Shown here: in pieces, positions 26,201 to 56,042 of the stretch
Numbering within the stretch: the first letter of the stretch is position 1
Layout: each line of letters opens with the position of its first letter
Source: Owenia fusiformis
Lineage: Eukaryota > Annelida > Polychaeta > Sabellida > Oweniidae
Reading direction: 5' to 3'
Assembly: GCA_903813345.2 (NCBI GenBank)
Contig: CAIIXF020000004.1
Coordinates: 1 to 64,000 of the forward strand
Length of the DNA: 64,000 bases
Made by a program: the position numbers and the translations under genes
Notes under the pieces: generated by a model
What the model saw: only the letters and a program-made list of their open reading frames with translations
Database searches by the model: none
Told to the model about the DNA's origin: nothing

Positions 26201-28663
26201 ACATTGGTTTTGTGCTTTGACGTGATATCACGTCCTTCGTAGTCAGCGTATATGCTTTATAACGTCATATAGTCTTTTAAAATAAACGATGACAGTGGGA
26301 TGTTTATATTTATTTCAGATTCTACATTTCATCGAAAATATGAATCAATTAATTTTAGTCTAATGGCTGAAAAATAGTACCCTATAAACAAAACGATTGT
26401 TTTTATCGGGGTTTTATTTCCCTCAAATTTAGTAATGCACAGTACAACTTCTACTAAACGACTCCATGCATTCCAGTTATTCTAAGTCATTTTAAAAGAA
26501 ACACTATAGATGAGAAACATTACTGATAGCTCTTTATGGTTGTCTGGAAGAGAATTGATGGGGAATGACGGGGTTTCATTTTGAAGACGCACAATATTAC
26601 GTAGCTTGATTGATTTCAAGTATTTTAACAAGGCATTAACGTGACAAAATGTCAGCACCTAGTTGCTCACAATATTATCAGTTCAATCTTTAGTCAGATT
26701 TGAATTTGATTTGAACTCTGTAGATGATTTCGAAAAAATGGTCAATTTAAAACAAGTAGTTTGACCCTGAGAAGATCATTGAAGGTGGAATCTCAAAAAT
26801 AAAGTCAGATTTGAAATTTGAACTTCTGAGAACTTGTAGATGATTTTGAAAAAAAAAGATTTGGTCAATTTGAAACAAGTTGAACAAAATACCTTTTTGA
26901 CCTTAAGAAGGTCATTTAAGATCAAATATTAAATCTAAAGTCAGATTTGAACTTCTGATAAATTGTAGATGATTTTGAAAAAAAATATTTGGTCAATTTG
27001 AAGCAAGTTGAAAAATACCTTTTTGACCTTTTTTAACCTTTCTGACCTTGAAAATGTCATTAAATGTCAAAGTTTAAATGTAAAGTCAGATTTGAACTTC
27101 TGAAAACTTGAAGATGATTAAGAAAAAATTTAAGTCAGTCTAAACAGTATTTGTTAAGTTATTGGAAGTTGTAAGAATTTGTTACAGTTACAGACGCCAA
27201 CCACCTCCCGCCGACCGCCGATCACCAACCGTCGCCAAAAACAATATGTCACCACTTCTTGGTGGTGACGTAAAATTGGGATCAGTGTATTAAACAGGAC
27301 AAAACAAATTGCATCTCTATTTCAATCAGATTTTTGCAGCTAAATAGTGAGATCATTTTCAAAACTTTCTTTGACTTTGATGTGCTTGAAACAAACTTAG
27401 CATCAAACAATACATTTTGTTCACGCAGTCCAGTCATCATTTGATCAAATGAAAATGTATGGCGAGAGCAGATAATAAGTAAACATTTATTGTTAGTTAT
27501 CCCAGGTATGGTATGAGTAAAAATGGTATTTAAAGGGAAATCTACTCTAAGCATGACGAATGATTCGAGCGAAGCTTTCTAAAAAATTACTCTGAAATTT
27601 ATGACACCGGACTGCAGACTATACTTACTCATTATGGAAATATGCTTTGAATTGTGTGATGACCCCTGTCTCTAGTTTGAGGTGTAGCAACAGCCAGACA
27701 CGCCTTGCCCCAGATATTAGAACACGACTAGAACTATCAAGGGGATCTCCGAAAATCCTGACGTCACCTTGGAAAGTATAAAATGTTTTACAAAAGAGAT
27801 AGGAACTCACCAGAGCTTAGAGATTACAGTCATAATAACATATTTTGCTTAATTTCCAACTTCTTTTGTCAGGATAGTTTCAAATACAACATGTCGTTGT
27901 GGAGCACTAGCATATTACACCCGTTTTATCCTAAAATGAGATAACGAGCTGTGATAAGCATGCAAGTAATTAACATATTATTGCTCGAAGCGTGTTTAGA
28001 ATATTTTGAAACCGCTTGTTAAAGGGGCGACAAGGCCCGTAAAGAGAAAATTTGATTTTCTGAGCTATCAGGTCAACATTTGGCTTAACATCTTCTTTGA
28101 CATACCTATTTTCTTAAAATGTATGGATAACTATCAATTTCAACATTAAGAAGTGTAAATTCAGTGGGGTCCCACTTATAGATTTTTAAGATCCACCACG
28201 TTTCAAGAGGAATATCAGCTGAAATAATGTACATCTACAATCTGGCGTGTTTCTTTGTAGACAACAAAAATATATGTTAGTCTTGACTGGTTGAAGAGAT
28301 ATCTAAACTTAAATATATTTTGACACTGGTCGATGATCATTGAATGGCCCCTCTGCACTAATTGTTGCACCTTTAATGGCGTCACGTGTCTGTCGATTTG
28401 ACGAATTAGCAACTGTCTTCTCAATACAAATTTGCATTATAGGCAAATGTCTTCTCTAAACCCTGAGGCAATTCCCTCTCTTGTTTTACAAATCTCCCCT
28501 ATATCACGTGACTTCTGGGATTTAGATGATGGCGTATCGCGAAATGTAATATCTCAGAGACATAATCCTCCATTGTAATTGGAAAGACTGATAACTAAGA
28601 CAACTTACCTAAAACAGTCTGGAGGGCTGCGATAAAACCGATCAGTCCAACAAAAAGCTTCAT
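11094..28663 (-). CDS. type I single-pass membrane receptor-like protein, seven exons
   Basis: The coding exons, in gene order, are 28609-28663, 27629-27767, 22679-22745 (tentative), 16163-16385, 12554-12669, 11990-12116 and 11094-11251. Phases join as 1, 2, 0, 1, 0, 1 and all boundaries are GT-AG. The predicted protein of about 294 aa has a signal peptide, a beta-rich ectodomain of about 150 aa with VKKGDIIG, a Pro/Thr-rich stalk (TTPRTPTTTRAPM), a linker, a transmembrane helix with GGAVGG, and a basic tail ending HEYVIKA. Ectodomains with a 'G-D-x-I-G' strand plus a Pro/Thr stalk are common in invertebrate cell-surface proteins. I infer a ligand-binding or adhesion role but cannot name the family. 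Introns carry many MITEs, a LINE and mariner relics. Without exon 3 the phases do not join, so another exon must exist if 22679-22745 is wrong. Confidence 0.8.
11990..12116 (-). CDS. receptor gene exon 6: juxtamembrane linker
   Basis: The acceptor is TTTATAACTACAG and the donor AATG/GTAAGA. It encodes GAGPASPLPPDLDN, then VEEIEPVPIPKSRPRE and a polar end. It is Pro-rich and acidic, then basic, and connects the stalk to the membrane. It leaves in phase 1. Confidence 0.75.
12261..12454. mobile_element. palindromic MITE in a receptor-gene intron (AGCGCTGT-rich)
   Basis: CACTGCCAATCTCAAACTGC at the left pairs with TGCAGATTGGTGTG at the right, flanked by TA. The interior repeats CAGCGCTGT/ACAGCGCTG in both orientations, so the whole is a long imperfect palindrome. 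A related fragment lies at about 12883-12980 in the next intron (GTCAATCTCAAACGGCATC, then CAGTGCTGGACAGTGCTG). Confidence 0.65.
12554..12669 (-). CDS. receptor gene exon 5: Pro/Thr-rich stalk
   Basis: The acceptor is TATTACTTTTCAG and the donor ATG/GTGAGT. It encodes DYWKYPDPPPTPITP followed by more Thr/Pro, including NITTP and TPTTTRAP. The composition is mucin-like and likely O-glycosylated, forming an extended stalk. It enters phase 1 and leaves phase 0. Confidence 0.8.
12985..13140. mobile_element. fold-back MITE fragment (GATTTGAAGTGCAA family)
   Basis: TTATTGAATGATTTGAAGTG near 13003 pairs with CACTTCAAATCATTATTC near 13097, and the right end is ATCGTGTGATC. The same family occurs at about 40670-40900 and 59210-59525. 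This is a short palindromic copy with no coding sequence. Confidence 0.6.
13150..14312. repeat. intron stretch with a long imperfect palindrome (about 13840-14245)
   Basis: ATAGTCCATTTGTCACCC (about 13860) pairs with GACAAATGGACTA (about 14230). GTGATTTAACTGGGTTG (about 13958) pairs with CAACCCAGCTAAATCAC (about 14140). These arms of about 200 bp suggest an inverted-repeat transposon. Nothing coding is seen from 13150 to 14312. Confidence 0.5.
14313..15588. mobile_element. 1.28-kb TIR element with GGGGCTCCCAGAGGGTA ends
   Basis: A perfect 17-bp inverted repeat, GGGGCTCCCAGAGGGTA, lies at 14313 and, as its reverse complement, at 15572-15588. The interior holds a duplication of about 150 bp (AAAAGTAGTGGAGCGATTTT occurs twice, with 'atggcggcc' motifs) and no intact transposase. 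No target duplication is recognised. It sits in the intron between receptor exons 4 and 5. Confidence 0.65.
15640..15905. mobile_element. fragment of the CTATCACACC-ended repeat family
   Basis: Blocks such as TAGGATTGAAGTACGAC, TACGTTGTCACTCGTTCT and CTAAGTTCT match the right half of 40978-41769 in the same orientation at about 80% identity. The family termini are not present here. Confidence 0.6.
16163..16385 (-). CDS. receptor gene exon 4: core of the ectodomain
   Basis: The acceptor is AATGTTGTAG, immediately followed by an open frame, with an in-frame TAG just upstream that fixes the boundary. It encodes HVKKGDIIGVLHE, EEATIGYREG and later KFYKGVWRFKHSIEFAL. The donor is CACAG/GTTAGC, phase 1. 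K-G-D-I-I-G resembles the exposed strand of beta-sandwich or jelly-roll surface proteins. There are no cysteines in this exon. Confidence 0.75.
16765..17085. repeat. 60-bp minisatellite, five nearly identical copies
   Basis: The unit ATTGAAACTAAACATGATCT followed by CGCACTGTTTTCCAAGAATG and GGTTGCTCAACAACAAATGC occurs five times with only CGCA(C/G)TG variation. The period is a multiple of three, so all its apparent reading frames are repeat artefacts. It lies in the intron upstream of receptor exon 4. It is unrelated in sequence to the other 60-bp array at 8838. Confidence 0.9.
17935..18057. repeat. satellite block, unit about 145 bp, part 1
   Basis: The unit contains CTTCTTCCTAGTGGATAATG and CACGTGTTAATTT-type sequence. 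It is continued at 20392-20884 and 21859-22140 after two transposons that split the block. Parts of the unit (ATTGGATTTATGGAGG) also occur in isolation. Confidence 0.8.
18058..20391 (-). mobile_element. mariner-type element (2.3 kb) with a LINE nested inside
   Basis: TIRs CAGGGTGGGCCAAGAAAA (18058) and TTTTTTGGCCCACCCTG (20391) are flanked by TA duplications within the satellite unit. The minus strand at about 19940-20230 still reads like the C-terminus of a mariner transposase: VPDLIWPDN, then SPDAIP, EGLQEMV, and RLKAIIKEGGG near the end, with stops. The remainder is occupied by a LINE fragment on the plus strand (about 18165-19790). The order of events reads as satellite, then mariner, then LINE. 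Confidence 0.75.
18165..19790 (+). pseudogene. truncated LINE (non-LTR retrotransposon): RT core to C-terminus
   Basis: The plus strand encodes CLLYADDIVFMG, the RT catalytic YxDD box, followed by ELQSMLTITNNFG and DKKSKIMIIG. Then come PAILHGCPTW and SILGDLGWKPIAEVI, and a Cys/His motif CIMCNLNLRDTLSHRLMVC. The C-terminal end resumes in another segment as PQFAKARSNFYNDVEKYVS at about 19530-19743. The 5' part (endonuclease, N-terminal RT) is missing. Stops near 18433 and 18779 and a frame change show it is dead. An insertion of about 320 bp separates the Cys/His motif from the C-terminus. The clade is not determined. Confidence 0.75.
20392..20884. repeat. satellite block, unit about 145 bp, part 2
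   Basis: Three and a half units of the same satellite lie here (AACTAATTAAATAGCACCCC, GTGTTATTTGTCATTGG, CTTCTTCCTAGTGGATAATG). Short deletions such as CCCC against CCCCC distinguish the copies. Confidence 0.85.
20885..21858. mobile_element. Tc1/mariner-type element, long-TIR deletion derivative (974 bp)
   Basis: CAGGGCGTATAAAAAACGCA (20885) pairs with TTTTTTATACGCACTG (21858), and TA flanks both sides inside the satellite. The inverted arms extend about 200 bp (GAAGTTATCTCG with GAGATAACAATC; AAGCCACGTCTC with GAGACACGTGGCTT). Another partial copy of the arm lies at about 21425-21610. The centre has no intact transposase. Confidence 0.75.
21859..22140. repeat. satellite block, unit about 145 bp, part 3
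   Basis: Two further units of the satellite follow the second transposon, ending near 22140, after which the sequence becomes unique. Confidence 0.8.
22290..22550. repeat. hairpin repeat related to 1388-1532
   Basis: GTGGAATACGGAGAATATTCCAC is partly palindromic, and CACTCATTCGCTACGCTCAC plus AAATCATAGGATATCCTAT match the palindromic MITE at 1388. It is probably a diverged fragment of the same family. No gene is seen. Confidence 0.4.
22679..22745 (-). CDS. receptor gene exon 3 (tentative, 67 bp)
   Basis: It was chosen because a phase-2 to phase-0 exon is needed between exons 2 and 4, and this one fits exactly (67 bp). It reads GSVSRNHNLTESHIFG then VKFQEL, with an N-glycosylation motif (NLT). 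The donor CTC/GTGAAGT is fair. The acceptor TTAATTAAAG is poor in pyrimidines, although a possible branch site TCTAAC lies upstream. The spacing to the following VKKGDIIG strand is reasonable. A transcript is needed to confirm it. Confidence 0.35.
22980..23500. repeat. short CAACCCC(A)AGTCA repeats and a duplicated 'gtgcccctggatgctgac' block
   Basis: About seven copies of an AACTCAACCCCAAGTC-like word are followed by its inverted form (GGGTTGAGTTGACTTGGGG), making a hairpin at 23010-23160. TATAGTGCCCCTGGATGCTG occurs at about 23178 and 23361. No coding sequence is seen. Confidence 0.6.
23527..24033. repeat. 84-bp perfect direct repeat, copies 423 bp apart
   Basis: A block beginning CATTGGGTATCCTATCCCTT is found at about 23527 and again at about 23950 with no visible difference over about 84 bp. 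The intervening DNA has no gene that I can recognise. Confidence 0.75.
24500..25072. repeat. 45-bp minisatellite, about 12 copies
   Basis: The unit TGACCCCTGTGAATAGCATT followed by ACCTTTTCAACAAATCATAT repeats from about 24525 to 25065. The period of 45 bp is a multiple of three, which creates apparent frames. Two flavours alternate (AAAAAGGCATATCAAAGTG and CAAATCATATAAATGTG). It lies in receptor intron 2. Confidence 0.9.
25073..25340. mobile_element. end fragment of the CACGCCCGGTG element family
   Basis: CACGCCCGGTGATCGGATAG and GCGATTTCTGCACGAAAA match both ends of the larger element at 29455-30815. Only about 270 bp of one end is present, directly abutting the 45-bp array. Confidence 0.6.
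25395..25935. repeat. tandem repeat, about 116-bp unit, five copies
   Basis: CAAGAACCCTTAACCTACCA, then GGAATGGGCCTGTACTCG and TTTGGTTTACCAGGTATATC recur about every 116 bp. Copies differ by a few substitutions and one short deletion. No coding function is seen. Confidence 0.85.
26690..27150. repeat. tandem repeat, about 125-bp unit, about four diverged copies
   Basis: AAAGTCAGATTTGAACTTCT, GTAGATGATTTTGAAAAAAA and CCTTTTTGACCTTAAGAAGG recur with substitutions and length changes. It is intronic and AT-rich. Confidence 0.7.
27629..27767 (-). CDS. receptor gene exon 2: N-terminal ectodomain strand region
   Basis: The acceptor is TACTTTCCAAG and the donor GA/GTAAGTATAG. It encodes GDVRIFGDPLDSSS and further on RRVWLLLHLKL and ITQFKAYFHN, hydrophobic and charged residues alternating as in beta strands. 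It enters in phase 1 and leaves in phase 2. The exon is 139 bp. Confidence 0.75.
28023..28372. mobile_element. TTAA-flanked MITE (AGGGGCRACAAGG family), copy 1
   Basis: AGGGGCGACAAGGCC at 28023 and TAATTGTTGCACCT at 28372 form the inverted ends, with TTAA immediately outside each (28019-28022, 28373-28376). The length is 350 bp. It matches 53964-54327 at roughly 85-90% by eye. It lies in intron 1 of the minus-strand receptor gene. No coding sequence is present. The target is piggyBac-like. Confidence 0.85.
28609..28663 (-). CDS. receptor gene exon 1: start codon and signal peptide
   Basis: It encodes MKLFVGLIGFIAALQTVL plus the first base of a glycine codon, a typical short signal peptide (basic n-region, hydrophobic core). 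The donor is G/GTAAGT. The exon ends in phase 1, which matches exon 2. No clear TATA box is seen upstream on the minus strand. Confidence 0.8.
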
Positions 28664-43300: not shown

Positions 43301-46300
43301 AGATATTAACCGTTTTCAATGTAGCCCTCAGTTTTGTCTCAAAGGGGGTATAAATAGTATTTCCCCCAAACGCTGACATATTTTACTTAATTAAGGTCAA
43401 AGAGGTACATGTATGAGTAATGTGTATGAGGGATATGACTAATGTGGCCTTCGAAATTCCCCTTCATACAGCAAATTGATTGCTAGCCAATGCTTATATT
43501 CTTTTCATATATTTAAACACAGCCATAGTGTTTAGACTCAGACTAAGCATAGAGAATTCTGTCACTTCTGCAGTTACCATGTGATCTTATCAATGAAAAC
43601 TCTACTAATAATTCAGTCTAGGTGCAATTTTAGCCAACATGATGTGAAAGTTGATGCTGTATTTTCTCTGTTAAATCATTTTTCAACATTATAGTGTTTA
43701 AAATTCAATTCTGACCAATATATTCAAGTAACCTCATCTTTCTAATACATGTCATGTTAGTGTAGTTTCGTTGTCTGTTTTTGCATAATTAGTACTCTGT
43801 GATCGATCAATACTAGAAACATAAGAAGGTGGCAGTTCTGTTTGTCACATCGGGGGCTGCTTTTGAAATATATACAACCAATACCTGAATATATATTCAA
43901 TTAATATCTAAATGACGTTTAAGGACCCCGAGAACCCTGCAGCTAAGTCCAACAAGAAGTACGTCATAGCAGCAGCAACTGTTGTGTTGATTCTGGTCAT
44001 CACACTGGGTGGAGTTCTGTTGACGCTGAAACTCACCAATGAGTTTGCTAGTGACACTATCAAGGTAAACAGAAGATGCAAAAATTAAAAGATGTAAATA
44101 AAGACAAGGCAGTAACAAATAAATATAATATATATTATACAGTAGTTATAATTTATATATGTATGCACGGGTGCCAGTGGGAAGGTGCCCGCGGTGCAAT
44201 TTGCTCACGCAGCACTTAATGAGCCTTACCCGCAGATATCACGAAAAAGTTAAACAGACCTCTCATATTTTCAATAAAACCGCTCGTCCAAGCACACTTA
44301 CTCACACAATTATTTTGAAAGACACCACAGTTTATTGCAATGGAACTCGCCACCGCGAGTCTTCTCGACAAGGTTGGCACAGCGGTAATCAGCGGTGTAC
44401 GTACTGTAACATTCAGCCTAATTATGGTAGTGTGGATGTTGTTTAATAGACTGTGTCACTGTGGGTCTCAGGGTATACGTTAAATATACACGTGGGAAAT
44501 CTGTACATAACAACTTATATACAATTAAATACAATAACACGTATATTGTGGCGTTTTAGCCCGTCAAAATAATACATGGAAATCGATGTTTTCAGTTACT
44601 GAGGCACTATATAAAAGTTCTTGATATGCAATGATAGTTTTTGAAGCACTAATATTAGAGTCCTCTATACGAAAATACTTGTACTCTCAATTGTCTCTTG
44701 TGCTCTGGACTTGTTCAATTCAGCTAGGTATAAATCTGGGAATAACAGTCTCTCATTACAGCTTCAGTGATTATGCCTTGGAATAACAGTCTCTCAATGA
44801 AGGCAAATCTCAAGCTGGCCTGAAATAAAATAACTAAGTCTGGAATCAACTTAGTTCCTCAATCAAGCTGGAGTTATATAAACTAAGTCTGGAAATGACA
44901 AAGTTTCTCAATATAGCAGTAATTCCTCAATCAGGCTAGAGTTATCTAAACTAAGTCTGGAAATGGCAAAGTTCCTCAATATGTGGAATCTGCCCAAGAT
45001 TCCCAGTAGTTCCCAAATAAACTAAGTGTCTCGTACTTAGTTTCCATCAAAGTCATCCAGGTTGGGGTGACACTATTCAACGTCCCCAACAGGCAACATC
45101 GATGAAGATCTTCTAAGTTCCTCAATATGTGGAATCTGCCTAAGATTCCCAGTAGCTCCCAAATCGATGAAGATCCTCTAGGTTCCTCAATATGTGGAAT
45201 CTGCCTAAGATTCCCAGTAGCTCCTAAATCGATGAAGATCCTTTAAGTTCCTCAATATGTGGAATCTGCCTAAGATTCCCAGTAGCTCCTAAATCGATGA
45301 AGATCCTCTATGTTCCTCAATATGTGGAATCTGCCTAAGATTCCCAGTAGCTCCTAAATCGATGAAGATCCTCTAAGTTCTTCAATATGTGGAATCTGCC
45401 TAAGATTCCCAGTAGCTCCTAAATCGATGAAGATCCTCTAAGTTCCTCAATATGTGGAATCTGCCTAAGATTCCCAGTAGCTCCTAAATCGATGAAGATC
45501 CTTTAAGTTCCTCAATATGTGGAATCTGCCTAAGATTCCCAGTAGCTCCTAAATCGATGAAGATCCTTTAAGTTCCTCAATATGTGGAATCTGCCTAAGA
45601 TTCCCTGTAGTTCCTAAATCGATGAAGATCCTTTAAGTTCCTCAATATGTGGAATCTGCCTAAGATTCCCAGTAGCTCCTAAATCGATGAAGATCCTTTA
45701 AGTTCTTCAATATGTGGAATCTGCCTAAGATTCCCAGTAGCTCCTAAATCGATGAAGATCCTTTAAGTTCTTCAATATGTGGAATCTGCCTAAGATTCCC
45801 AGTAGCTCCTTAATCGATGAAGATCCTCTAAGTTCCTCAATATGTGGAATCTGCCTAAGATTCCCAGTAGCTCCTAAATCGATGAAGATCCTTTAAGTTC
45901 CTCAATATGTGGAATCTGCCTAAGATTCCCAGTGGCTCCTAAATCGATGAAGATCCTCTAAGTTCCTCAATATGTGGAATCTGCCTAAGATTCCCAGTAG
46001 CTCCTAAATCGATGAAGATCCTTTAAGTTCTTCAATATGTGGAATCTGCCTAAGATTCCCAGTAGCTCCTAAATCGATGAAGATCCTTTAAGTTCTTCAA
46101 TATGTGGAATCTGCCTAAGATTCCCAGTAGCTCCTTAATCGATGAAGATCCTCTAAGTTCCTCAATATGTGGAATCTGCCTAAGATTCCCAGTAGCTCCT
46201 TAATCGATGAAGATCCTTTAAGTTCCTCTATATGTGGAATCTGCCTAAGATTCCCAGTAGCTCCTAAATCGATGAAGATCCTTTAAGTTCCTCAATATGT

Positions 46301-49300
46301 GGAATCTGCCTAAGATTCCCAGTGGCTCCTAAATCGATGAAGATCCTCTAAGTTCCTCAATATGTGGAATCTGCCTAAGATTCCCAGTAGCTCCTAAATC
46401 GATGAAGATCCTTTAAGTTCCTCAATATGTGGAATCTGCCTAAGATTCCCAGTAGCTCCTAAATCGATGAAGATCCTTTAAGTTCCTCAATATGTGGAAT
46501 CTGCCTAAGATTCCCAGTAGCTCCTAAATCGATGAAGATCCTTTAAGTTCCTCAATATGTGGAATCTGCCTAAGATTCCCTGTAGTTCCTAAATCGATGA
46601 AGATCCTTTAAGTTCCTCAATATGTGGAATCTGCCTAAGATTCCCAGTAGCTCCTAAATCGATGAAGATCCTTTAAGTTCTTCAATATGTGGAATCTGCC
46701 TAAGATTCCCAGTAGCTCCTAAATCGATGAAGATCCTTTAAGTTCTTCAATATGTGGAATCTGCCTAAGATTCCCAGTAGCTCCTTAATCGATGAAGATC
46801 CTTTAAGTTTCTCAATATGTGGAATCTGCCTAAGTTTCCCAGTAGCTCCTAAATCGATGAAGATCCTCTAAGTTCCTCAATATGTGGAATCTGCCTAAGA
46901 TTCCCTGTAGTTCCTAAATAAACTAAGTGTCTCGTCGGGGGTGACACTATTCAACTTCCCCAACAGGCAACAGCGATGAAGATCCTCTAGGTTCCTCAAT
47001 ATGTGGAATCTGCCTAAGATTCCCCGTAGCTCCTAAATCGATGAAGATCCTCTAAGTTCCTCAATATGTGGAATCTGCCTAAGATTCCCTGTAGTTCCTA
47101 AATAAACTAAGTGTCTCGTCGGGGGTGACACTATTCAACTTCCCCAACAGGCAACAGCGATGAAGATCCTCTAGGTTCCTCAATATGTGGAATCTGCCTA
47201 AGATTCCCCGTAGTTCCTAAATAAACTAAGTGTCTCGTACTTAGTTTCCATTAAGTCATCCAGGTTGAGTGCAAATATTCCAAGTTCCTCAACAGCTCCT
47301 CCAAATGAGCTGAGTTTCTGGTACTTATTCTCAATCAGGTTTGAGTTATATAGACAATGTCGGGAAATGACAGAGTTTCTCAGTCCAGCTGTATTTCCAT
47401 AATCAGGCTGGAATATTCCTCAATCCAGCAGAGTCCTTCAAACAGGCTTGAGTTGTCTCAACTATGTCGGGAAATGACAGAGTTTCTCAGTCCAGCTGTA
47501 TTTCTTCAGTCAGGCTGGGATATTATATAAACAATGTCGGGAAATGACAGAGTTTCTCAATCCATCAAAGTTCCTCAATCAGGCTGGAATATTATGAACT
47601 TTGTCTGGGAATGGCAAAGTTCCTCAATCCAATAGTATTTCTTCAGTCAGGCTGGAATATTGTATAAACTATGTCGGTAAATGACAAAGTTTCTCAATCC
47701 AGAAAAGTTCCTCAATCAGGCTGGAATATTATGAACTTTGTCTGGAAATGGCAAAGTTCCTCAGTCCAGTAGTATTTCTTCAGTCAGGCTGGAATATTGT
47801 ATAAACTATGTCGGGAAATGACAAAGTTTCTCAATCCAGAAAAGTTCCTCAATCAGGCTGGAATATTATGAACTTTGTCTGGAAATGGCAAAGTTCCTCA
47901 GTCCAGTAGTATTTCTTCAGTCAGGCTGGAATATTGTATAAACTATGTCGGGAAATGACAAAGTTTCTCAGTCCAGCAAAGTTCCTCAATCAGGCTGGAA
48001 TATTATGAACTTGGAAATATAATTCAGATCTCATTTGGTGAGCTTGCTTAGGTAGCAGATGGACGTTTCATTGTAATCGAACTTCAACACTGAGAATCCT
48101 GGAAATGGCAAAGTTCCTCAATCCAGCAGTATTTCTTCAGTCAACAAATTGATGACAAATAATTGATCTAAAAATGGCTAAGTTTCTCAAGTTAACTAAA
48201 TTATGAAAAGAATAATGTAAGTTTCTCAACCTCAAAAATGGCAAAGTTTCTCAAGTTAACAATTGATTTCGAAAAATGGCAAAGTTTCTCAAGTTAACAA
48301 TAGAAAAAAAAACAAGTTACTTAATAACACCTGAAAATACAAGTTGATGGCACTCCTTCTCAATCAGGCTGGAATAATGTAAACTAAGTCTGGTAATGAC
48401 AAAGTTTCTCGTTCCAGCAGTAATTCTTTAATCGGCTGAAATATTATAAAAACTTTGCCTGGAAATGACAAAGTTTCTCGGTTCAGCAGTATTTCATCAA
48501 ACGGCTTGAATACTCTAAACTATGCCTGGAATTGACAAAGTTCATCGATCTAGCAGTAATTCTTCAATCGGGCTGAAATATTCTAAAACTTTGCCTGGAA
48601 ATGACAAAGTTTCTCGGCTCAGCAGTATTTCATCAAACGGGCTGGAATATTCTAAACTATGCCTGGAAATGACAAAGTTTCTCGGTCCAGCAGTATCTCT
48701 TCAATCAGGCTGGAGTTATCTAAACTATGTCTGGACATGACAAAGTTCCTCGATCCAGCAGTATTTCTTCAAACAGGCTGAAATATTCTAAAACTTTGCC
48801 TGGAAATGACAAAGTTTCTCGGTTCAGCAGTATTTCATCAAACGGGCTGGAATATTCTAAACTATGCCTGGAAATGACGACGTTTCTCGATCCAGCAGTA
48901 ATTCTTCAGTCGGGCTGAAATATTCTAAAACTTTGCCTGGAAATGACAAAGTTTCTCGGTCCAGCAGTATCCCTTCAATCAGGCTGGAGTTATCTAAACT
49001 ATGTCTGGAAATGACAAAGTTCCTCGATCCAGCAAATCTTCTAAGTTTCTCATCAATCCTCAAATGAAACACTGGCACGGGAGATGTGTTCCCATCAAAT
49101 GTTGCCTACGTGTCTGGCTTGTTGTATGCTCACTCCGTATTTATACCCCTGACATGTATGGAACATGTAGTATGATCACGTGAATGGCTGATGCAATACC
49201 TCGTCACCGGATGTAATCACTGAATCAGGATATTAGTTTCGTAAAAATAACTGGCTTCACTTACAAATCACGATCTCGGCTTTTACACCCAATATCAATA

Positions 49301-52300
49301 CATGTTTGGTACATAATCAACAAGATTATAGTATAAACTCAATAAATATAACCATAAATGATCGCTATCTAGTCTAATTACGCTTCGATTTGATCGAATT
49401 GAAAGCAGGAAGTGATAATTTCTGTAAAATGATAGTCAAGAGTTCTCGATCAACCGTAACCATAGTCACTGGTAAAACTACCCGATCAACATTAACTAAA
49501 TCTGAACTCGATAAAATAAAAAGTTGCTAACACCTCTGTAAGTACAAATAAAGTGCTTTAATCGATACTACAATCAAAGATCTTAATAATCTCAACTGTG
49601 AAGCACTTAAATCAAAAAAATTTAAAATCAAAATTTTGTTACAGTACGCTTGGGTGAGCTGTTTTTGTTGAAAACGTGCGATTATGTAATTTGCATGGAG
49701 GAGCTTATTGCTTTTCGTGATACCTGTGGGGAAGGCTCACTAGGTGCTGCGAGAGCAAATTGCGAACGTGGCATGGGCAGTACAAAAATGAAGCCTCGAT
49801 CAATTAGGGGCGGAGAATTCTGATTTTGTAACTGATACTCGGAGGATGTTTTCGAATGAATTAATTGAATGTATTAAGAGATGTAAATACCAATATGTAA
49901 ATCAGGTGGTATTATGTAATGGGATGACAAGGCCGTTAATACCTTATACAAGATGAATGTGATATATTTGTTAGGAGTACAAACTTTCAAGGGAAACCAT
50001 TGTGAAAGTCGACATTGAGAATGGTATGGCAGAAGTCGACAATACCAAAAAAGGCTATAACGTGTACAATGACTTTAACATGGTAAGATACCTTGTTTAC
50101 CGATGTTTGACATGCATATCTAAGATCAGTTGATTAAAGGCGAATACCATTTAGCATATTTTAGTGTATTTCACGTTGGTAATCATTGATGATTGTCTTA
50201 ATGATGTAACAAACTCGAAAAATAATGAAAAACAACATTTTTGTGTGATGGCACCTTCCGTTTTGTTCTTAATATATCATATATATTAATGATATATCAA
50301 TATTTCAGGATTCTCAGTGTTGAAGTTCGATTACAATGAAACGTCCATCTGCTACCTAAGCAAGCTCACCAAATGAGATCTGAATTATATTAATGTTTAT
50401 ATTTCAGGATTCTCAGTGCTGAAGATCGATTACAATGAAACGTCCATCTGCTACCTAAGCAAGCTCACCAAATGAGATCTAAATTATATTAATGTTTATA
50501 TTTCAGGATTCTCAGTGTTGAAGCTCGATTACAATGAAACGTTCATCTGCTACCTAAGCAAGCTCACCAAATGAGATCTGAATTATATTAATGTTTATAT
50601 TTCAGGATTCTCAGTGTTGAAGCTCGATTACAATGAAACGTTCATCTGCTACCTAAGCAAGCTCACCAAATGAGATTTGAATTATATTAATGTTTATATT
50701 TCAGGATTCTCAGTGTTGAAGCTCGATTACAATGAAACGTCCAACTGCTACCTTAGCAAGCTCACCAAATGAGATCTGACTCATGTAAATGTTCGTATTT
50801 CAGGGTTTCTCAGTGTTGAAGCTCGGCTACAATAATACCTACATCTGCTACCTAAGCAAGCTCACCAAATGAGATCTGAATTATATTAATGTTTATATTT
50901 CAGGGTTTCTCAGTGTTGAAGCTCGATTACAATGAAACGTTCATCTGCTACCTAAGCAAGCTCACCAAATGAGATCTGAATTATATTAATGTTTATATTT
51001 CAGGGTTTCTCAGTGTTGAAGCTCGGCTACAATAATACCTTCATCTGCTATCTAAGCAAGCTCACCAAATGAGATCTGAATTATATTAATGTTTATATTT
51101 CAGGGTTTCTCAGTGTTGAAGCTCGGCTACAATAATACCTTCATCTGCTATCTAAGCAAGCTTACCAAATGAGATCTGAATTATATTAATGTTTATATTT
51201 CAGGGTTTCTCAGTGTTGAAGCTCGGCTACAATAATACCTTCATCTGCTATCTAAGCAAGCTCACCAAATGAGATCTGAATTATATTAATGTTTATATTT
51301 CAGGGTTTCTCAGTGTTGAAGCTCGGCTACAATAATACCTTCATCTGCTATCTAAGCAAGCTCACCAAATGAGATCTGAATTATATTAATGTTTATATTT
51401 CAGGGTTTCTCAGTGTTGAAGCTCGGCTACAATAATACCTTCATCTGCTATCTAAGCAAGCTCACCAAATGAGATCTGAATTATATTAATGTTTATATTT
51501 CAGGATTCTCAGTGTTGAAGCTCGATTACAATGAAACGTCCATCTGCTACCTAAGCAAGCTCACCAAATGAGATCTGAATTATATTAATGTTTATATTTC
51601 AGGGTTTCTCAGTGTTGAAGCTCGGCTACAATAATACCTTCATCTGCTATCTAAGCAAGCTCACCAAATGAGATCTGAATTATATTAATGTTTATATTTC
51701 AGGGTTTCTCAGTGTTGAAGCTCGGCTACAATAATACCTTCATCTGCTATCTAAGCAAGCTTACCAAATGAGATCTGAATTATATTAATGTTTATATTTC
51801 AGGGTTTCTCAGTGTTGAAGCTCGGCTACAATAATACCTTCATCTGCTATCTAAGCAAGCTTACCAAATGAGATCTGAATTATATTAATGTTTATATTTC
51901 AGGGTTTCTCAGTGTTGAAGCTCGGCTACAATAATACCTTCATCTGCTATCTAAGCAAGCTCATCAAATGAGATCTGAATTATATTAATGTTTATATTTC
52001 AGGGTTTCTCAGTGTTGAAGCTCGGCTACAATAATACCTTCATCTGCTACCTAAGCAAGCTCACCAAATGAGATCTGAATTATATTAATGTTTATATTTC
52101 AGGGTTTCTCTGTGTTGAAGCTTAGTTATAATAATACCTTCATCTGCTATCTAAGCAAGCTCATCAAATGAGATCTGAATTATATTAATGTTCGTATTTC
52201 AGGGTTTCTCAGTGTTGAAGCTCGGCTACAATGAAACGTCCATCTGCTTCCTAAGCAAACTCACCAAATAAGATCTGACTCGTGTAAATGTTCGTATTTC

Positions 52301-55300
52301 AGGGTTTCTCAGTGTTGAAGCTCGGCTACAATAATACCTACATCTGCTATCTTAGCAAGCTCACCAAATAAGATCTGACTCATGTAAATGTTCGTATTTC
52401 AGGGTTTCTCAGTGTTGAAGCTCGGCTACAATAATACCTACATCTGCTACCTTAGCAAGCTCACCAAATAAGATCTGACTCATGTAAATGTTCGTATTTC
52501 AGGGTTTCTCAGTGTTGAAGCTCGGCTACAATAATACCTACATCTGCTACCTTAGCAAGCTCACCAAATAAGATCTGACTCATGTAAATGTTCGTATTTC
52601 AGGGTTTCTCAGTGTTGAAGCTCGGCTACAATAATACCTTCATCTGCTACCTAAGCAAGCTCACCAAATGAGATCTGACTCATGTAAATGTTCGTATTTC
52701 AGGGTTTCTCAGTGTTGAAGCTCGGCTACAATAATACCTACATCTGCTACCTTAGCAAGCTCACCAAATGAGATCTGACTCATGTAAATGTTCGTATTTC
52801 AGGGTTTCTCAGTGTTGAAGCTCGGCTACAATAATACCTACATCTGCTACCTTAGCAAGCTCACCAAATGAGATCTGACTCATGTAAATGTTCGTATTTC
52901 AGGGTTTCTCAGTGTTGAAGCTCGGCTACAATAATACCTACATCTGCTACCTTAGCAAGCTCACCAAATAAGATCTGACTCATGTAAATGTTCGTATTTC
53001 AGGGTTTCTCAGTGTTGAAGCTCGGCTACAATAATACTTTCATCTGCTATCTAAGCAAGCTCACCAAATGAGATCTGAATTATATTAATGTTTGTATTTC
53101 AGGGTTTCTCAGTGTTGAAGCTCGGCTACAATAATACTTTCATCTGCTATCTAAGCAAGCTCACCAAATAAGATCTGAATTATATTAATGTTTATATTTC
53201 AGGGTTTCTCAGTGTTGAAGCTCGGCTACAATAATACCTTCATCTGCTACCTAAGCAAGCTCACCAAATAAGATCTGAATTATATTAATGTTCGTATTTC
53301 AGGGTTTCTCAGTGTTGAAGCTCAGCTACAATAATACTTTCATCTGCTATCTAAGCAAGCTCACCAAATAAGATCTGAATTATATTAATGTTTATATTTC
53401 AGGGTTTCTCAGTGTTGAAGCTCGGCTACAGTAATACCTTCATCTGCTACCTAAGCAAGCTCACCAAATAAGATCTGAATTATATTAATGTTTATATTTC
53501 AGGGTTTCTCAGTGTTGAAGCTCGGCTACAATAATACTTTCATCTGCTACCTAAGCAAGCTCATCAAATGAGATCTGAATTATATTAATGTTTATATTTC
53601 AGGGTTTCTCAGTGTTGAAGCTCGGCTACAATAGCTCACCAAATAAGATCTGAATTATATTAATGTTTATATTTCAGGGTTTCTCAGTGTTGAAGCTCGG
53701 CTACAATAATACCTTCATCTGCTACCTAAGCAAGCTCACCAAATGAGATCTGAATTATATTAATGTTTATATTTCAGGGTTTCTCAGTGTTGAAGCTCGG
53801 CTACAATAGTACCTTCATCTGCTACCTAAGCAAGCTCATCAAATGAGATCTGAATTATATTAATGTTTATATTTCAGGGTTTCTCAGTGTTGAAGCTCGG
53901 CTACAATAATACTTTCATCTGCTACCTAAGCAAGCTCATCAAATGAGATCTGAATTATATTAAAGGGGCAACAAGGCCTGTAGGGAGAAAATAGGAAAAT
54001 CAAAAAAAATTCTGAGCTATCAAGGCAACATTTGGCTTAACATCTTCTTTGACATACCTATTTTCTTAAAATGTATGGATAAACTATCAATTTCAGCCTT
54101 AAGAAGTGTAAATTCAGTTCAAAGCTTGAAAAAGGGGAAATCCACTTTTATATTTTTAAGATCCACCATGTTTCAAGAGGAATATCAGCTAAAATAATTT
54201 TTATCTAGGGGGTTTCTTTGTAGATAATAAAAATAGATGTTAGTCTTGATGAAATATCCAAACTTAAATATATTTTGGCACTGGTCCATGATCGTTGAAT
54301 GGCCCCTCTGCACTAATTGTTGCACCTTTAATGTTTATATTTCAGGGTTTCTCAGTGTTGAAGCTCGGCTACAATAATACCTTCATCTGCTATCTAAGCA
54401 AGCTCATCAAATGAGATCTGAATTATATTAATGTTTATATTTCAGGGTTTCTCAGTGTTGAAGCTCGGCTACAATAATACCTACATCTGCTATCTTAGCA
54501 AGCTCACCAAATAAGATCTGAATTATATTAATGTTTATATTTCAGGGTTTCTCAGTGTTGAAGCTCGGCTACAATAATACCTACATCTGCTATCTTAGCA
54601 AGCTCACCAAGGGTGTCCTTTCTCCAGCAGCAATGCAGAGTTATTTGGAGTACCATCCTGTAAGTTCATCTAGTTGCGCTCTCCAAGAGGTCATCTACAG
54701 AATCTTAGTTTCTAATTTTCTAATTGATTTCTTAATTCTGCAAGACCCATCCTTCAGAATGGTTGATCATGTCTTCTCCGCTAACACCAAAATTACAGTA
54801 TGGCCTGAACTGGATGCGAAATGAGAGAATATGTATTTCATCACGTTTATGGTTTTAAATGAGAGGCGTAATTGATTGATATGTCACACAACAATGAAAG
54901 ATGTTTTACAAAATGTACAGAGACTAAAAAATTGCATTTCATAGTTAATTTGTGTATGAATGGAAAACAATAATGACAAATCGTAAATAATTCTTGTGTA
55001 TTATTTTAAGGATGGGGAAGAGATAACATCACACGACAAGGACGCTGATTTGCCACATTTAATGCAAGCCAAAGAGGAAATACGTGACCGTGGATTTCTG
55101 GGACATCAAGAACGAGATTCGTGCGCAGGGTCCCCCATACATTGGCTCGTCCCTGCCACTGAAGAAGTACCAGATGGTGATGCTGATGATGATACAATTG
55201 TTAGTGAGGCTAATGGAAATGATGTCACGACTGGTATGTTGCTATTGTAAATAATGTATTTCTCTTAATTACTATATGGATATAATAAAGCGAATAAATC

Positions 55301-56042
55301 TCATTGAGATTAGTATTCACGGTCCGTAAAAGTGAGCAGCCTAACCTTAAAACCCAAATGATCTATACGTCATAGGTACATCCAAAACATCCATAAATGT
55401 GTGTTGAAGGTGACTTCTGTTAGCGCACCTCAAATTAACGGTTGATTTGACAGTGTTGCGAACTCACATTAAATCATCGTTAGTCAATTAAAGTTTGATA
55501 TTTGTAAACATGTGCGATATGGAAACAGAAAATAAATAAGATTAATTATGTTTACTACAGGAACTCCTCACAATGCATCATTAGTGAGAGAGAAAAGGGA
55601 CAAAAGCCACAGTAAGCACCACAGCAAACACAAGTCCCACAGCAAACACAAGTCCCACAGCAAATACCACAGTCACAGTAGTAGTAGTAGTAGCAGCAGT
55701 AGCAGTAGCAGCAGCAGCAGTGGAAGCAGTGATAGCGATCATGGAAGCTGCTACAGTCGTAAACAAAGATATCTTTGCTACTCGGGTGCGGATTACTGCT
55801 GCGTTGGGTGCTGCATTCCCGGATGTGGGCCATCTCCTTGTTGCTACTCTGCCGGTTGTTGTCGCCGTGGTGATAGCTCTGATGATAGCTCCAGTAGTTC
55901 GAGCGACTCCAGTCACTCTAGCCACAGTCACCATAGCAAACACAGTAAACATAAACATCACAGCCATAAGCATAGCAGCAAACACAGCAGCAAACATCAT
56001 AGCCACAGCAGCCACAGCAGTCATAGCAGTCATAGCAAATAA
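40262..56042 (+). CDS. BRICHOS-domain type II membrane precursor with a furin-released His/Ser/Cys-rich peptide
   Basis: The six coding exons are 40262-40303, 43924-44064, 49975-50082, 54546-54659, 55011-55233 and 55561-56042 (phases 0,0,0,0,1; about 369 aa). The N-terminus is cytosolic and lysine-rich, with a transmembrane helix at about 27-49, then a linker. The BRICHOS domain spans about 75-185: Asp94 in VYNDF, Cys112 in TYICYL, and Cys173 in CAGSPIHWLVPA, the typical closing motif. REKR at 219-222 is a furin-type site. The released part (223-369) is His/Ser/Lys-rich at both ends with an 11-Cys centre. BRICHOS precursors chaperone aggregation-prone segments (surfactant protein C, chondromodulin/tenomodulin) or deliver antimicrobial peptides (arenicins). 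The released peptide could be antimicrobial, metal-binding or structural; I cannot tell which. Intron 3 carries an array of exon-4 acceptor copies. Confidence 0.85.
40670..40900. mobile_element. fold-back MITE in BRICHOS intron 1
   Basis: TGTATTGCTACTGAGATTGT and ACAATCTCAGTAGCAATACA are inverted about 70 bp apart, followed by GTTATTGAATGATTTGAAGT. The whole corresponds, in reverse complement, to 59210-59525. No coding sequence is present. Confidence 0.7.
40978..41769. mobile_element. 792-bp element with CTATCACACCAAACTAGTT ends
   Basis: CTATCACACCAAACTAGTT at 40978 is matched by its reverse complement ending at 41769. The interior contains repeated ACGT/GTTCGT-rich words. Partial relatives are at 5180-5340 and 15640-15905. 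It lies in intron 1 of the BRICHOS gene. A poly-C run abuts its left end. Confidence 0.7.
41770..43923. repeat. rest of BRICHOS intron 1, including a palindromic segment of about 1 kb
   Basis: Arms at 42245-42425 and about 42960-43215 pair: AAGTATTTTCCTATTGAG with the complement near 43190, AAGTTTGTGACGTCA with TGACGTCACAAACTT, and GCAGAGCAGCC-type centres. This is probably an inverted-repeat transposon. A poly-C run occurs at about 41899-41914. Nothing coding was recognised. Confidence 0.5.
43924..44064 (+). CDS. BRICHOS gene exon 2: transmembrane helix
   Basis: It encodes DPENPAAKSNKKYVIAAA, then a run of hydrophobic residues (VVLILVITLGGVLL) and KLTNEFASDTIK. Lysines before the helix predict the N-terminus inside, so type II. 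The acceptor is ACGTTTAAG, with a CTAAATGAC branch-like site. The donor is AAG/GTAAAC. Confidence 0.85.
44160..44300. repeat. left arm of an inverted pair bounding most of BRICHOS intron 2
   Basis: CAATTTGCTCACGCAGCACT and GATATCACGAAAA here match, in reverse complement, 49695-49760 (GTGCTGCGAGAGCAAATTG, TTTTCGTGATACC) at about 80% over 65 bp or more. The enclosed 5.4 kb is mostly minisatellite, which is the layout of a fold-back element. Confidence 0.55.
44975..47230. repeat. 65-bp minisatellite, about 34 copies, in BRICHOS intron 2
   Basis: TTCCTCAATATGTGGAATCT, GCCTAAGATTCCCAGTAGCT and CCTAAATCGATGAAGATCCT make a 65-bp unit. Two longer units near 46910 and 47100 carry an extra block, AACTAAGTGTCTCGTCGGGG. 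Copies are nearly identical, so the array is recently homogenised. Confidence 0.95.
47280..49065. repeat. second minisatellite of BRICHOS intron 2 (GGAAATGACAAAGTTTCTC units)
   Basis: Units of about 60-125 bp share TCTGGAAATGACAAAGTTTC, CTCAATCCAGCAGTATTTCT and TCAATCAGGCTGGAATATT. Related wording links it to the 65-bp array before it. The apparent short frames (for example from 48522) are repeat artefacts. The array contains one inverted copy of the exon-4 unit at 48017-48100. Confidence 0.9.
48017..48100 (-). repeat. inverted single copy of the BRICHOS exon-4 acceptor unit
   Basis: The reverse complement reads AGGATTCTCAGTGTTGAAGT, then TCGATTACAATGAAACG and the CACCAAATGAGATCTGAATT end. 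It equals the first unit of the intron 3 array (from 50306) over about 84 bp, including the GAAGTTCG variant found only in that unit. It sits within the GGAAATGGCAAAG minisatellite. Confidence 0.9.
49066..49974. other. rest of BRICHOS intron 2, including the right arm of the inverted pair
   Basis: The right arm (about 49690-49790) complements 44160-44300. The remainder (49080-49680) is unique-looking AT-rich sequence without a gene. Confidence 0.45.
49975..50082 (+). CDS. BRICHOS gene exon 3: linker and first BRICHOS strand
   Basis: The acceptor is ATTTGTTAG and the donor ATG/GTAAGA. It encodes EYKLSRETIVKVDIENGMA and then KKGYNVYNDFNM. The VYNDF aspartate lies 18 residues before the first BRICHOS cysteine, as in the family. 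It is in phase 0 on both sides. Confidence 0.85.
50300..54545 (+). repeat. tandem array of about 39 decoy 3' splice sites with partial BRICHOS exon 4
   Basis: Each unit of about 100 bp (99 in one subtype) holds ATGTTTATATTTCAG, then GGTTTCTCAGTGTTGAAGCT, and codes SVLKLGYNNTFICYLSKLTK before a TGA or TAA. Counting the CAG acceptors gives 39 before the true one at 54543-54545. Three subtypes occur. Type A (GGATTCTC, GATTACAATGAAACG; 99 bp; first five units and one near 51501) is out of frame with exon 3. Type B is most common. Type C (CATGTAAATGTTCGTATTTCAG) appears near 50801 and about 52200-53000. One unit near 53600 is shortened. A MITE splits the array at 53964-54327. Confidence 0.95.
53964..54327. 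mobile_element. TTAA-flanked MITE, copy 2, inserted in the decoy-exon array
   Basis: AGGGGCAACAAGGCC (53964) and TAATTGTTGCACCT (54327) are flanked by TTAA on both sides. The target was the TTAA in TATATTAATGTTT of one array unit, and the unit continues on the other side. It is 364 bp long and homologous to 28023-28372. Confidence 0.9.
54546..54659 (+). CDS. BRICHOS gene exon 4: first conserved cysteine
   Basis: The acceptor is TTTATATTTCAG and the donor CCT/GTAAGT. It encodes GFSVLKLGYNNTYICYL, then SKLTKGVLSPAAMQ and SYLEYHP. Its acceptor and first 66 bp are the last copy of the array in intron 3. It differs from the decoys by reading AAGGGT where they read AAATGA or AAATAA. Confidence 0.9.
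55011..55233 (+). CDS. BRICHOS gene exon 5: end of the BRICHOS domain and acidic linker
   Basis: The acceptor is TTATTTTAAG and the donor ACTG/GTATGT, phase 1. It encodes DGEEITSHDKDADLP, then GFLGHQERDSCAGSPIHW and an acidic stretch EEVPDGDADDDTIVSE. The Cys followed by a P-x-x-W-L motif is the characteristic BRICHOS ending. A second frame over the middle of the exon is also open but does not join exon 6. Confidence 0.85.
55561..56042 (+). CDS. BRICHOS gene exon 6: furin site and His/Ser/Lys/Cys-rich C-terminal peptide
   Basis: The acceptor is TTTACTACAG. After NAS (a possible glycosylation site) comes LVREKRDK, a furin-type cleavage site. Then follow SHSKHHSKHKSHSKH-type repeats, a serine run and GSSDSDHG. 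The cysteine-rich core reads CYSRKQRYLCYSG, DYCCVGCCIPGCG, PSPCCYSAGCCRRG. A second Ser/His/Lys repeat tract closes before TAA. The AGC CAC AGC AAA-type microsatellite codons suggest growth by slippage. Confidence 0.9.

Follow-up and report, generated by a model that had tools for sequence, protein, structure and literature searches.

The host gene and its BRICHOS-like domain

The window analysed here, a 64,000-nucleotide stretch of Owenia fusiformis DNA, holds a gene on its forward strand for which a five-exon model gives an intact reading frame of 1080 nt (359 residues) with GT-AG borders. Coding exon 1 (43912–44064; 51 codons) is open from its ATG to the donor AAG/GTAAAC (the slash marks the splice border), joins in phase 0 and encodes a short N-terminus with a hydrophobic stretch that is probably a membrane anchor. 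Coding exon 2 (49975–50082; 36 codons) ends at the donor ATG/GTAAGA at 50083 and is placed between a single inverted copy of a repeat unit and the tandem array of that unit. Coding exon 3 (54546–54659; 114 nt, 38 codons) begins in the last copy of the array, copy 40, and ends at the donor CCT/GTAAGT; it is followed by coding exon 4 (55011–55233), which carries the remainder of the BRICHOS-like domain, and coding exon 5 (55561–56042), which encodes a REKR sequence that by eye is a furin-type motif and a His/Ser-rich tail with a Cys-rich core, and closes with TAA. The intron downstream of exon 3 measures 351 nt, the full intron upstream of it 4463 nt. An earlier note on this DNA had numbered the exon at the array as the fourth; in our model it is the third coding exon, although that numbering would be right if a small or upstream exon has escaped detection.

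The same note had named the domain BRICHOS. The translation matches Pfam PF04089 over nearly the full model (positions 6–91 of 91, E 1.6e-4), but with 22.3 bits against a gathering score of 25, and we therefore speak of a BRICHOS-like domain and do not file the protein as a family member. BRICHOS identity is nevertheless likely. Inspected by eye, the 359-residue translation has the BRICHOS-type layout of N-terminal hydrophobic segment, linker, domain and C-terminal region. Two cysteines (in ICYL and DSCA) lie, again by eye, in plausible places for the conserved pair of the family. A sequence search of the PDB, made with a query that had misread leading residues, gave four matches (E 0.19–0.33), none of them a BRICHOS protein. 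No relatives were found in a scan of viral contigs, and the one locus from a scan of genome contigs, in a Cyclobacteriaceae MAG, was rejected as a relative, being a bacterial open frame that matches at 23 of 44 residues and, by eye, resembles an oxidoreductase.

Forty acceptors and one inverted unit

Within 50309–54546 lie 40 acceptors of the form TATTTCAG/G, counted as matches to TATTTCAGG and positioned by their first exon base. The repeat unit straddles the intron–exon boundary, as had been proposed, and consists of 66 exon bases and the intron sequence with the acceptor. TRF reports a 100-bp unit in 33.4 copies at 50300–53633 (95% matches, score 5429), with further rows up to 53963 and at 54328–54610. 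The 39 spacings between acceptors are 100 bp in 31 cases, 99 bp in six, and 75 bp and 468 bp in one each, so no regular copy was missed by the pattern search. Chance is excluded as a source of the array. The main array (50303–53963, forward strand) carries decoy acceptors 1–37 at 50309–53878 in units of 99 or 100 bp, apart from copy 34 (53603), a 75-bp unit that stops after GFSVLKLGYNSSPNKI. The 99-bp type comprises copies 1–5 (50309–50803, forward strand) and copy 13 (51504). Decoy copies 38 and 39 follow at 54328–54545, again on the forward strand, with acceptors at 54346 and 54446. The previous count of about 39 decoys thus stands, with one productive copy beside them; what does not belong to the array is the interval 53964–54327. 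Copy 40 alone reads through into the real exon and its donor, as the note had stated, with 114 nt from 54546 to 54659 and then GTAAGT.

That interval, the site of the 468-bp spacing, is a MITE-like insert of 364 bp. It has the features of a TTAA-type MITE, namely TTAA on both sides, terminal inverted repeats (10 of 11 positions) and a dispersed second copy, which lies at 28023–28372 and is 80% identical. An AATAAA is found within the insert at 54226.

Copies 39 and 40 differ at two of 100 compared positions, one of them in the stop codon that closes the unit before (TGA/TAA), the other the final base of the 66 exon bases (A/G); their 32 acceptor-proximal intron bases are identical and 65 of the 66 exon bases are the same, which leaves nothing in the neighbouring sequence to single out the last acceptor as the true site. 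An 8-nt acceptor core is unchanged in all 40 copies (post hoc p=0.04 against other intron positions), an invariance that is partly a product of how the copies were sought. Adjacent copies are 95.6% identical, a value reached in none of 5000 shuffles of the order (37 of the 40 copies used), and such similarity of neighbours is as would be expected from local unequal exchange. Across 39 copies, 60 bases of the exon part show 25 variants, which together with the insert suggests that the array is not brand-new. Copy 7 mixes features of both unit types, and exchange among copies or gene conversion, from which the earlier note had proposed a supply of exon variants, is plausible.

New in this analysis is a lone copy of the array unit, in inverted orientation, within intron 1 (48016–48104, reverse strand). 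It is complementary to unit 1 (50303–50391) at 88 of 89 nt and matches other array copies at 87–98% (25 of 41 pairs, among the matches listed). A 68/137-bp minisatellite lies on either side of it (47419–48012 and 48360–49034); the inverted copy is 2.2 kb from the array and flanks exon 2. Given this complementarity, pairing with the decoys could occur in the pre-mRNA, and inverted copy and array might form one RNA device in which the inverted copy pairs most stably with unit 1, whose acceptor is the one at intron-definition distance, and less so with copy 40, hides decoys and loops out exon 2. If so, some 40 units would compete for one partner and thereby set acceptor choice, exon 2 could be skipped or circularised, and copy number would tune output; we regard this as a long shot. 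The pairing of the first 216 nt of intron 2 with the unit (−50.6 kcal/mol) was not stronger than that of 60 control stretches (mean −55.5).

Predicted products of the decoys

A premature stop is predicted from each of the 39 decoys, so the truncated, nonsense-containing product expected in the earlier note is borne out at the level of prediction. The 22 exon codons attributed to each decoy hold for 32 of the 39, which would be read as 22 in-frame codons and a stop, for a product of 109 residues. The other seven cannot encode this segment: copy 34 is truncated, and the six of the 99-bp type start with GATTC, not GGTTTC, are one base short and reach a gene-frame stop after DSQC. The closing TGA or TAA is present as sequence in the 38 full-length decoys (28 and 10, respectively), although in the six frameshifted ones translation would end at the earlier stop. 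After a decoy junction the stop would come within 5 to 23 codons; all decoy stops fall upstream of two further junctions, the nearest decoy's stop 145 nt ahead of the next one.

Eight of the 196 GTs in 50300–54540 agree with 7 of the 9 positions of the donor consensus, all of them CATGTAAAT (CAT/GTAAAT), a single unit variant. The gene's four real donors also score 7 of 9 each; the eight have G at neither −1 nor +5, whereas every real donor has at least one of these. We do not claim the decoys as complete poison exons. As they have no clearly good donor, the most likely result of using a decoy would be an exon that runs on across all later copies as far as the donor at 54660. Recursive splicing was considered and rejected, the junction of exon 2 with a decoy forming no good donor by inspection.

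Whether the decoys are translated exons was judged from their variation. Raw pN/pS, at 0.20 (33 copies) or 0.27 (39 copies), looked convincing, but a test for synonymous excess matched to the mutation spectrum gave p=0.07 for 39 copies, 0.023 for 33 and 0.11 for 32 (without the productive copy), and one of seven runs on control frames was similar (reverse frame 1, p=0.04). Support for selection acting on these exons is therefore weak, and we do not claim that the decoys are translated. The invariant acceptor core and the synonymous excess do give a hint of constraint.

Origin of the array and comparison with known systems

The explanation we favour, with moderate confidence, is that a minisatellite expansion captured the splice acceptor, that cross-exon pairing favours the last acceptor, that decoy transcripts are lost and that the array is tolerated. 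A tandem duplication would have joined the 66th exon base to the intron 34 bases upstream of the acceptor, by slippage or unequal exchange, and further rounds would have produced about 40 copies. Each decoy has its own branch-point/pyrimidine region, AG and exon start. A productive mRNA would need the last acceptor, the only one that gives a 114-nt exon with the donor at 54660; pairing across the exon would favour it, and transcripts from decoy use would carry nonsense and presumably decay. Minisatellites are abundant in the window: 17 other arrays, chosen by hand from the TRF output, cover 12,218 bases or 20% of the rest, and that one of them should cover a splice site is therefore not improbable. 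The array at the acceptor is probably tolerated, not selected, and any regulatory role is hypothetical.

Distance rules bear on this reading from both sides. Intron definition has a limit of 200–250 nt, and the first decoy acceptor, 226 nt from the donor at 50083, is close to it, so that proximal decoys could win. The figure of 200–250 nt is given in a literature passage. Carranza et al. (2022, PMC9225289) report that exon definition favours the sites nearest across the exon; for 3′ splice sites of like strength, section 9 of the paper describes a strong upstream preference as reduced in long-intron contexts, without stating there that it is reversed. We count this last result against our preferred explanation, together with the position of the first decoy, the hints of constraint and the equality of eight array GTs with the real donors by consensus count.

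Regulated unproductive splicing would make the decoy ladder a rheostat: protein output would be set by the proportion of transcripts spliced to the last acceptor, nonsense-mediated decay would remove the others, and the gene would be tuned through its number of copies of the unit. The early stops from every decoy ahead of two more junctions and the constancy of the acceptor core suit this idea, yet the same anatomy is expected from neutral expansion and the scans of viral and genome contigs yielded no relatives for a conservation test; we consider it unlikely. That the decoys end translation on purpose, yielding a protein of about 109 residues that keeps the membrane anchor but lacks most of the BRICHOS-like domain, fits the 32 decoys with 22 codons and a stop, the raw pN/pS of 0.20 and the AATAAA in the insert, which could end such messages early. 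This seems very unlikely in view of the spectrum-matched test and its control frame, and of the six frameshifted decoys and the truncated one.

Were the array destroying expression, with the remainder of the gene undrifted so far, we would be looking at a decaying allele or gene. On most splicing models 39 nonproductive acceptors among 40 near-equal ones would indeed lower output, but the model has an unbroken reading frame and no damaged splice border, and the array is apparently not brand-new, which makes decay quite unlikely. Assemblies often misjudge how many copies a near-identical array contains, and copies may have been collapsed, expanded or falsely joined. Graded differences between copies, two length types, the 75-bp unit, the matching inverted copy and a unit interrupted by an element that also occurs at 28023–28372 all speak against an artefact, which we hold to be highly improbable.

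Under the minisatellite explanation, the array is probably an accident of repeat expansion. It illustrates how a growing minisatellite can take in a splice site and yet leave the coding frame of the gene unbroken; the length of the repeat could then come to influence gene output. A ladder of acceptors between one donor and one exon end is also a natural test of intron against exon distance in splicing, effects that are usually tested with pairs of sites. An exact-word search of openly licensed papers found, among the matches listed, neither a tandem acceptor array nor such a BRICHOS gene.

The closest precedent is the human gene IFI6, in which a minisatellite with a 12-bp unit reportedly supplies multiple splice donors. 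There, too, a tandem unit holds a splice site of the host gene in many copies within one transcript; the difference is that the sites repeated here are acceptors and the unit is much longer. Among marine annelid genes, preproalvinellacin is described as encoding a hydrophobic N-terminal stretch, a linker, BRICHOS and a C-terminal peptide, with several introns (PMC5431198), and nicomicins have similar precursors (PMC6265681). The gene studied here shares this layout and a multi-intron structure, but its C-terminus is long and His/Ser-rich with a Cys core, and where whole preproalvinellacin genes are described as duplicated in tandem (PMC5431198), here it is half an exon. Tandem alternative 3′ splice sites, among which the choice reportedly depends in part on intronic or exonic distance (PMC9225289), likewise offer several acceptors to one donor; forty near-identical sites in a 100-bp ladder are unlike the usual pair. 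Finally, in Dscam-type clusters with docking and selector sequences, copies are described as competing for one complementary element (PMC6071210), which resembles one inverted copy complementary to 40 competing units. Unlike in Dscam, however, the units are half exons with a stop in 39 of 40, not complete alternative coding exons, and the inverted copy is found not in the array's own intron but in the one before it.

Forty acceptors and their predicted products

Positions 50300-54659 hold a tandem array with a 100-bp unit (TRF, in the window), in which a full unit runs from 34 bases of intron, closing with TATTTCAG, into 65 or 66 bases of exon. A pattern count gives 40 acceptors, separated by 39 spacings of 100 bp (31), 99 bp (six), 75 bp (one) and 468 bp (one). 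The 468-bp gap contains a 364-bp MITE-like element (53964-54327) that is flanked by TTAA at either end and has 11-nt inverted ends matching at 10/11 positions; within the window, a second copy (28023-28372) is 80% identical. The array copy of this element carries an AATAAA at 54226.

The surrounding gene model has five coding exons on the forward strand: exon 1 (43912-44064), encoding a hydrophobic stretch, exon 2 (49975-50082, 108 nt), exon 3 (54546-54659, 114 nt), which is array copy 40, exon 4 (55011-55233) and the last exon, 5 (55561-56042). Joined, they form 1080 nt and 359 residues with no internal stop, and all four introns are GT-AG; start codon, donors and acceptors were picked by eye and frame, and an additional small exon is possible. 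Residues 80-170 of a 200-residue query matched positions 6-91 of the 91-position BRICHOS model (E 1.6e-4, 22.3 bits, below the cut-off of 25), and we term the protein BRICHOS-like, the match being sub-cut-off. Read by eye, the C terminus downstream of an REKR motif is rich in His and Ser around a core of many Cys; this last-exon region may be cleaved off as a peptide that binds metal or is antimicrobial.

To predict the products, exons 1 and 2 were joined to each acceptor, read up to the real exon 3 donor, and continued into exons 4 and 5. Only copy 40, the last, gives the full protein, which bears out the earlier note's proposal of about 39 decoy acceptors across an intron-exon boundary; the truncated products it listed as one possible outcome are likewise predicted, as 39/40 acceptors end in an early stop. 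In the gene's frame, the 22 codons plus a stop that it describes for complete decoys are read from 32 acceptors (109 residues) and not from seven: copies 1-5 and 13 lack one base and end in DSQC and a stop, and copy 34 ends in GFSVLKLGYNSSPNKI and a stop. The exon 1-2 plus decoy product gave no match to the BRICHOS model at E up to 1. A stop more than 50 nt before a junction marks a transcript for decay; in the nearest decoy, the stop lies 145 nt upstream of the next junction, so by this rule its transcript would be marked. Scored against the donor consensus, the 196 GTs in 50300-54540 reach at most 7/9, a value attained by eight, all CAT|GTAAAT. The gene's real donors (4/4) also score 7/9, so the consensus count alone cannot tell the two apart; the array sites have G neither at -1 nor at +5, while every real donor has G at one or both of these positions.

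Apparent turnover and the minisatellite setting

Adjacent copies share a mean identity of 95.6%, matched in none of 5000 order shuffles (37 of 40 copies, with copies 1, 34 and 38 omitted); this high likeness of neighbours is the pattern of local exchange. The productive copy is most closely related to copy 39 (97.9%), and turnover thus appears to include the productive exon. Across 39 copies (copy 34 omitted), an alignment of 60 exon bases has 25 variants, of which 12 are synonymous vs 8.95 expected (p=0.07). Restricting the set to the 33 copies whose exon start is in frame gives 11/21 vs 7.2 (p=0.023), and removal of the productive copy from this set gives 10/20 vs 7.5 (p=0.11); seven control-frame runs returned p = 0.04, 0.10, 0.26, 0.86, 0.97, 0.99 and 1.00. 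The acceptor core is identical in 40/40 copies, which were sought by that very pattern, although the spacing shows none missing; among the 34 intron positions, variation occurs at 10 (comparison of 38 copies; p=0.04, post hoc). The synonymous excess and the invariant core are hints that fall short of establishing function. A further seventeen minisatellite arrays, hand-picked from TRF rows, cover 12,218 bases, or 20% of the window outside the acceptor array, so that it is not improbable for one splice site to be captured by chance alone. The array is real and its scale unusual, and it most likely arose passively as a minisatellite expanded.

Intron 1 contains minisatellites of 65-bp, 68-bp and 137-bp units (45098-49034), the 65-bp unit having an acceptor-like CTAAGATTCCCAG motif (by eye). 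Elsewhere, a 60-bp unit repeated 35 times (8847-10948) results in long open frames on both strands, and a frame with YADDIV at 18047-18433 resembles a LINE-type reverse transcriptase fragment (motif by eye).

An inverted copy in intron 1

A single array unit lies on the reverse strand in intron 1, at about 48016-48104 (or to 48106), between two 68/137-bp minisatellite stretches (47419-48012 and 48360-49034), and its immediate flanks resemble their unit by eye. It is complementary to the first array unit (50303-50391) at 88/89 nt, and less so to the others. Its abrupt junctions suggest, as the likeliest origin, a short insertion for which the array served as template. The energy computed for an RNA duplex of the inverted copy is -161.9 kcal/mol when the partner is unit 1 and -157.6 when it is copy 13; for the productive copy, where the last bases of the array unit are missing, it is -94.9, and for the 75-bp copy -81.4. 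Control stretches of the window (60) gave a mean of -27.7 and a minimum of -39.7. This ranking would follow from descent of the inverted copy from a unit-1-type copy. The inverted copy and the array bracket exon 2, whose 108 nt could be skipped in frame. Masking of decoys, exon 2 skipping or circle formation are possible consequences; a pairing role would require intron 1 to be still present when the acceptor is chosen.

Acceptor choice and known systems

Copies 39 and 40 differ at two of 100 positions: one falls within the preceding stop (TGA/TAA) and lies 33 nt upstream of the exon, and the other is the final base of the 66 exon bases. No local mark thus sets the productive site apart, and the main distinction is position relative to the donor and exon end. 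Across the 40 acceptors, the intron would measure 226 to 4463 nt, and the exon to the real donor 114 nt from copy 40, 214 from copy 39, 314 from copy 38 and 782 from copy 37. Carranza et al. 2022 (PMC9225289) conclude that the winning site is the nearest across the intron when introns are short and the nearest across the exon when they are long; between 3' sites similar in strength, the upstream preference is strong with short introns and significantly reduced with long ones. The last acceptor would be favoured, since no other keeps the exon up to the real donor short. Its exclusive use is not predictable from the 3' data of that paper, and it is quite possible that a considerable share of splicing is lost to decoys.

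The array is valuable as a natural experiment in splicing, and no comparable acceptor array was found among the openly licensed papers listed. The nearest precedent is the IFI6 minisatellite, which reportedly provides multiple splice donors; there donors are repeated, whereas here it is the acceptors. Docking/selector systems (PMC6071210) share the one-to-many complementarity seen here, but their units are complete exons, unlike those of this array.
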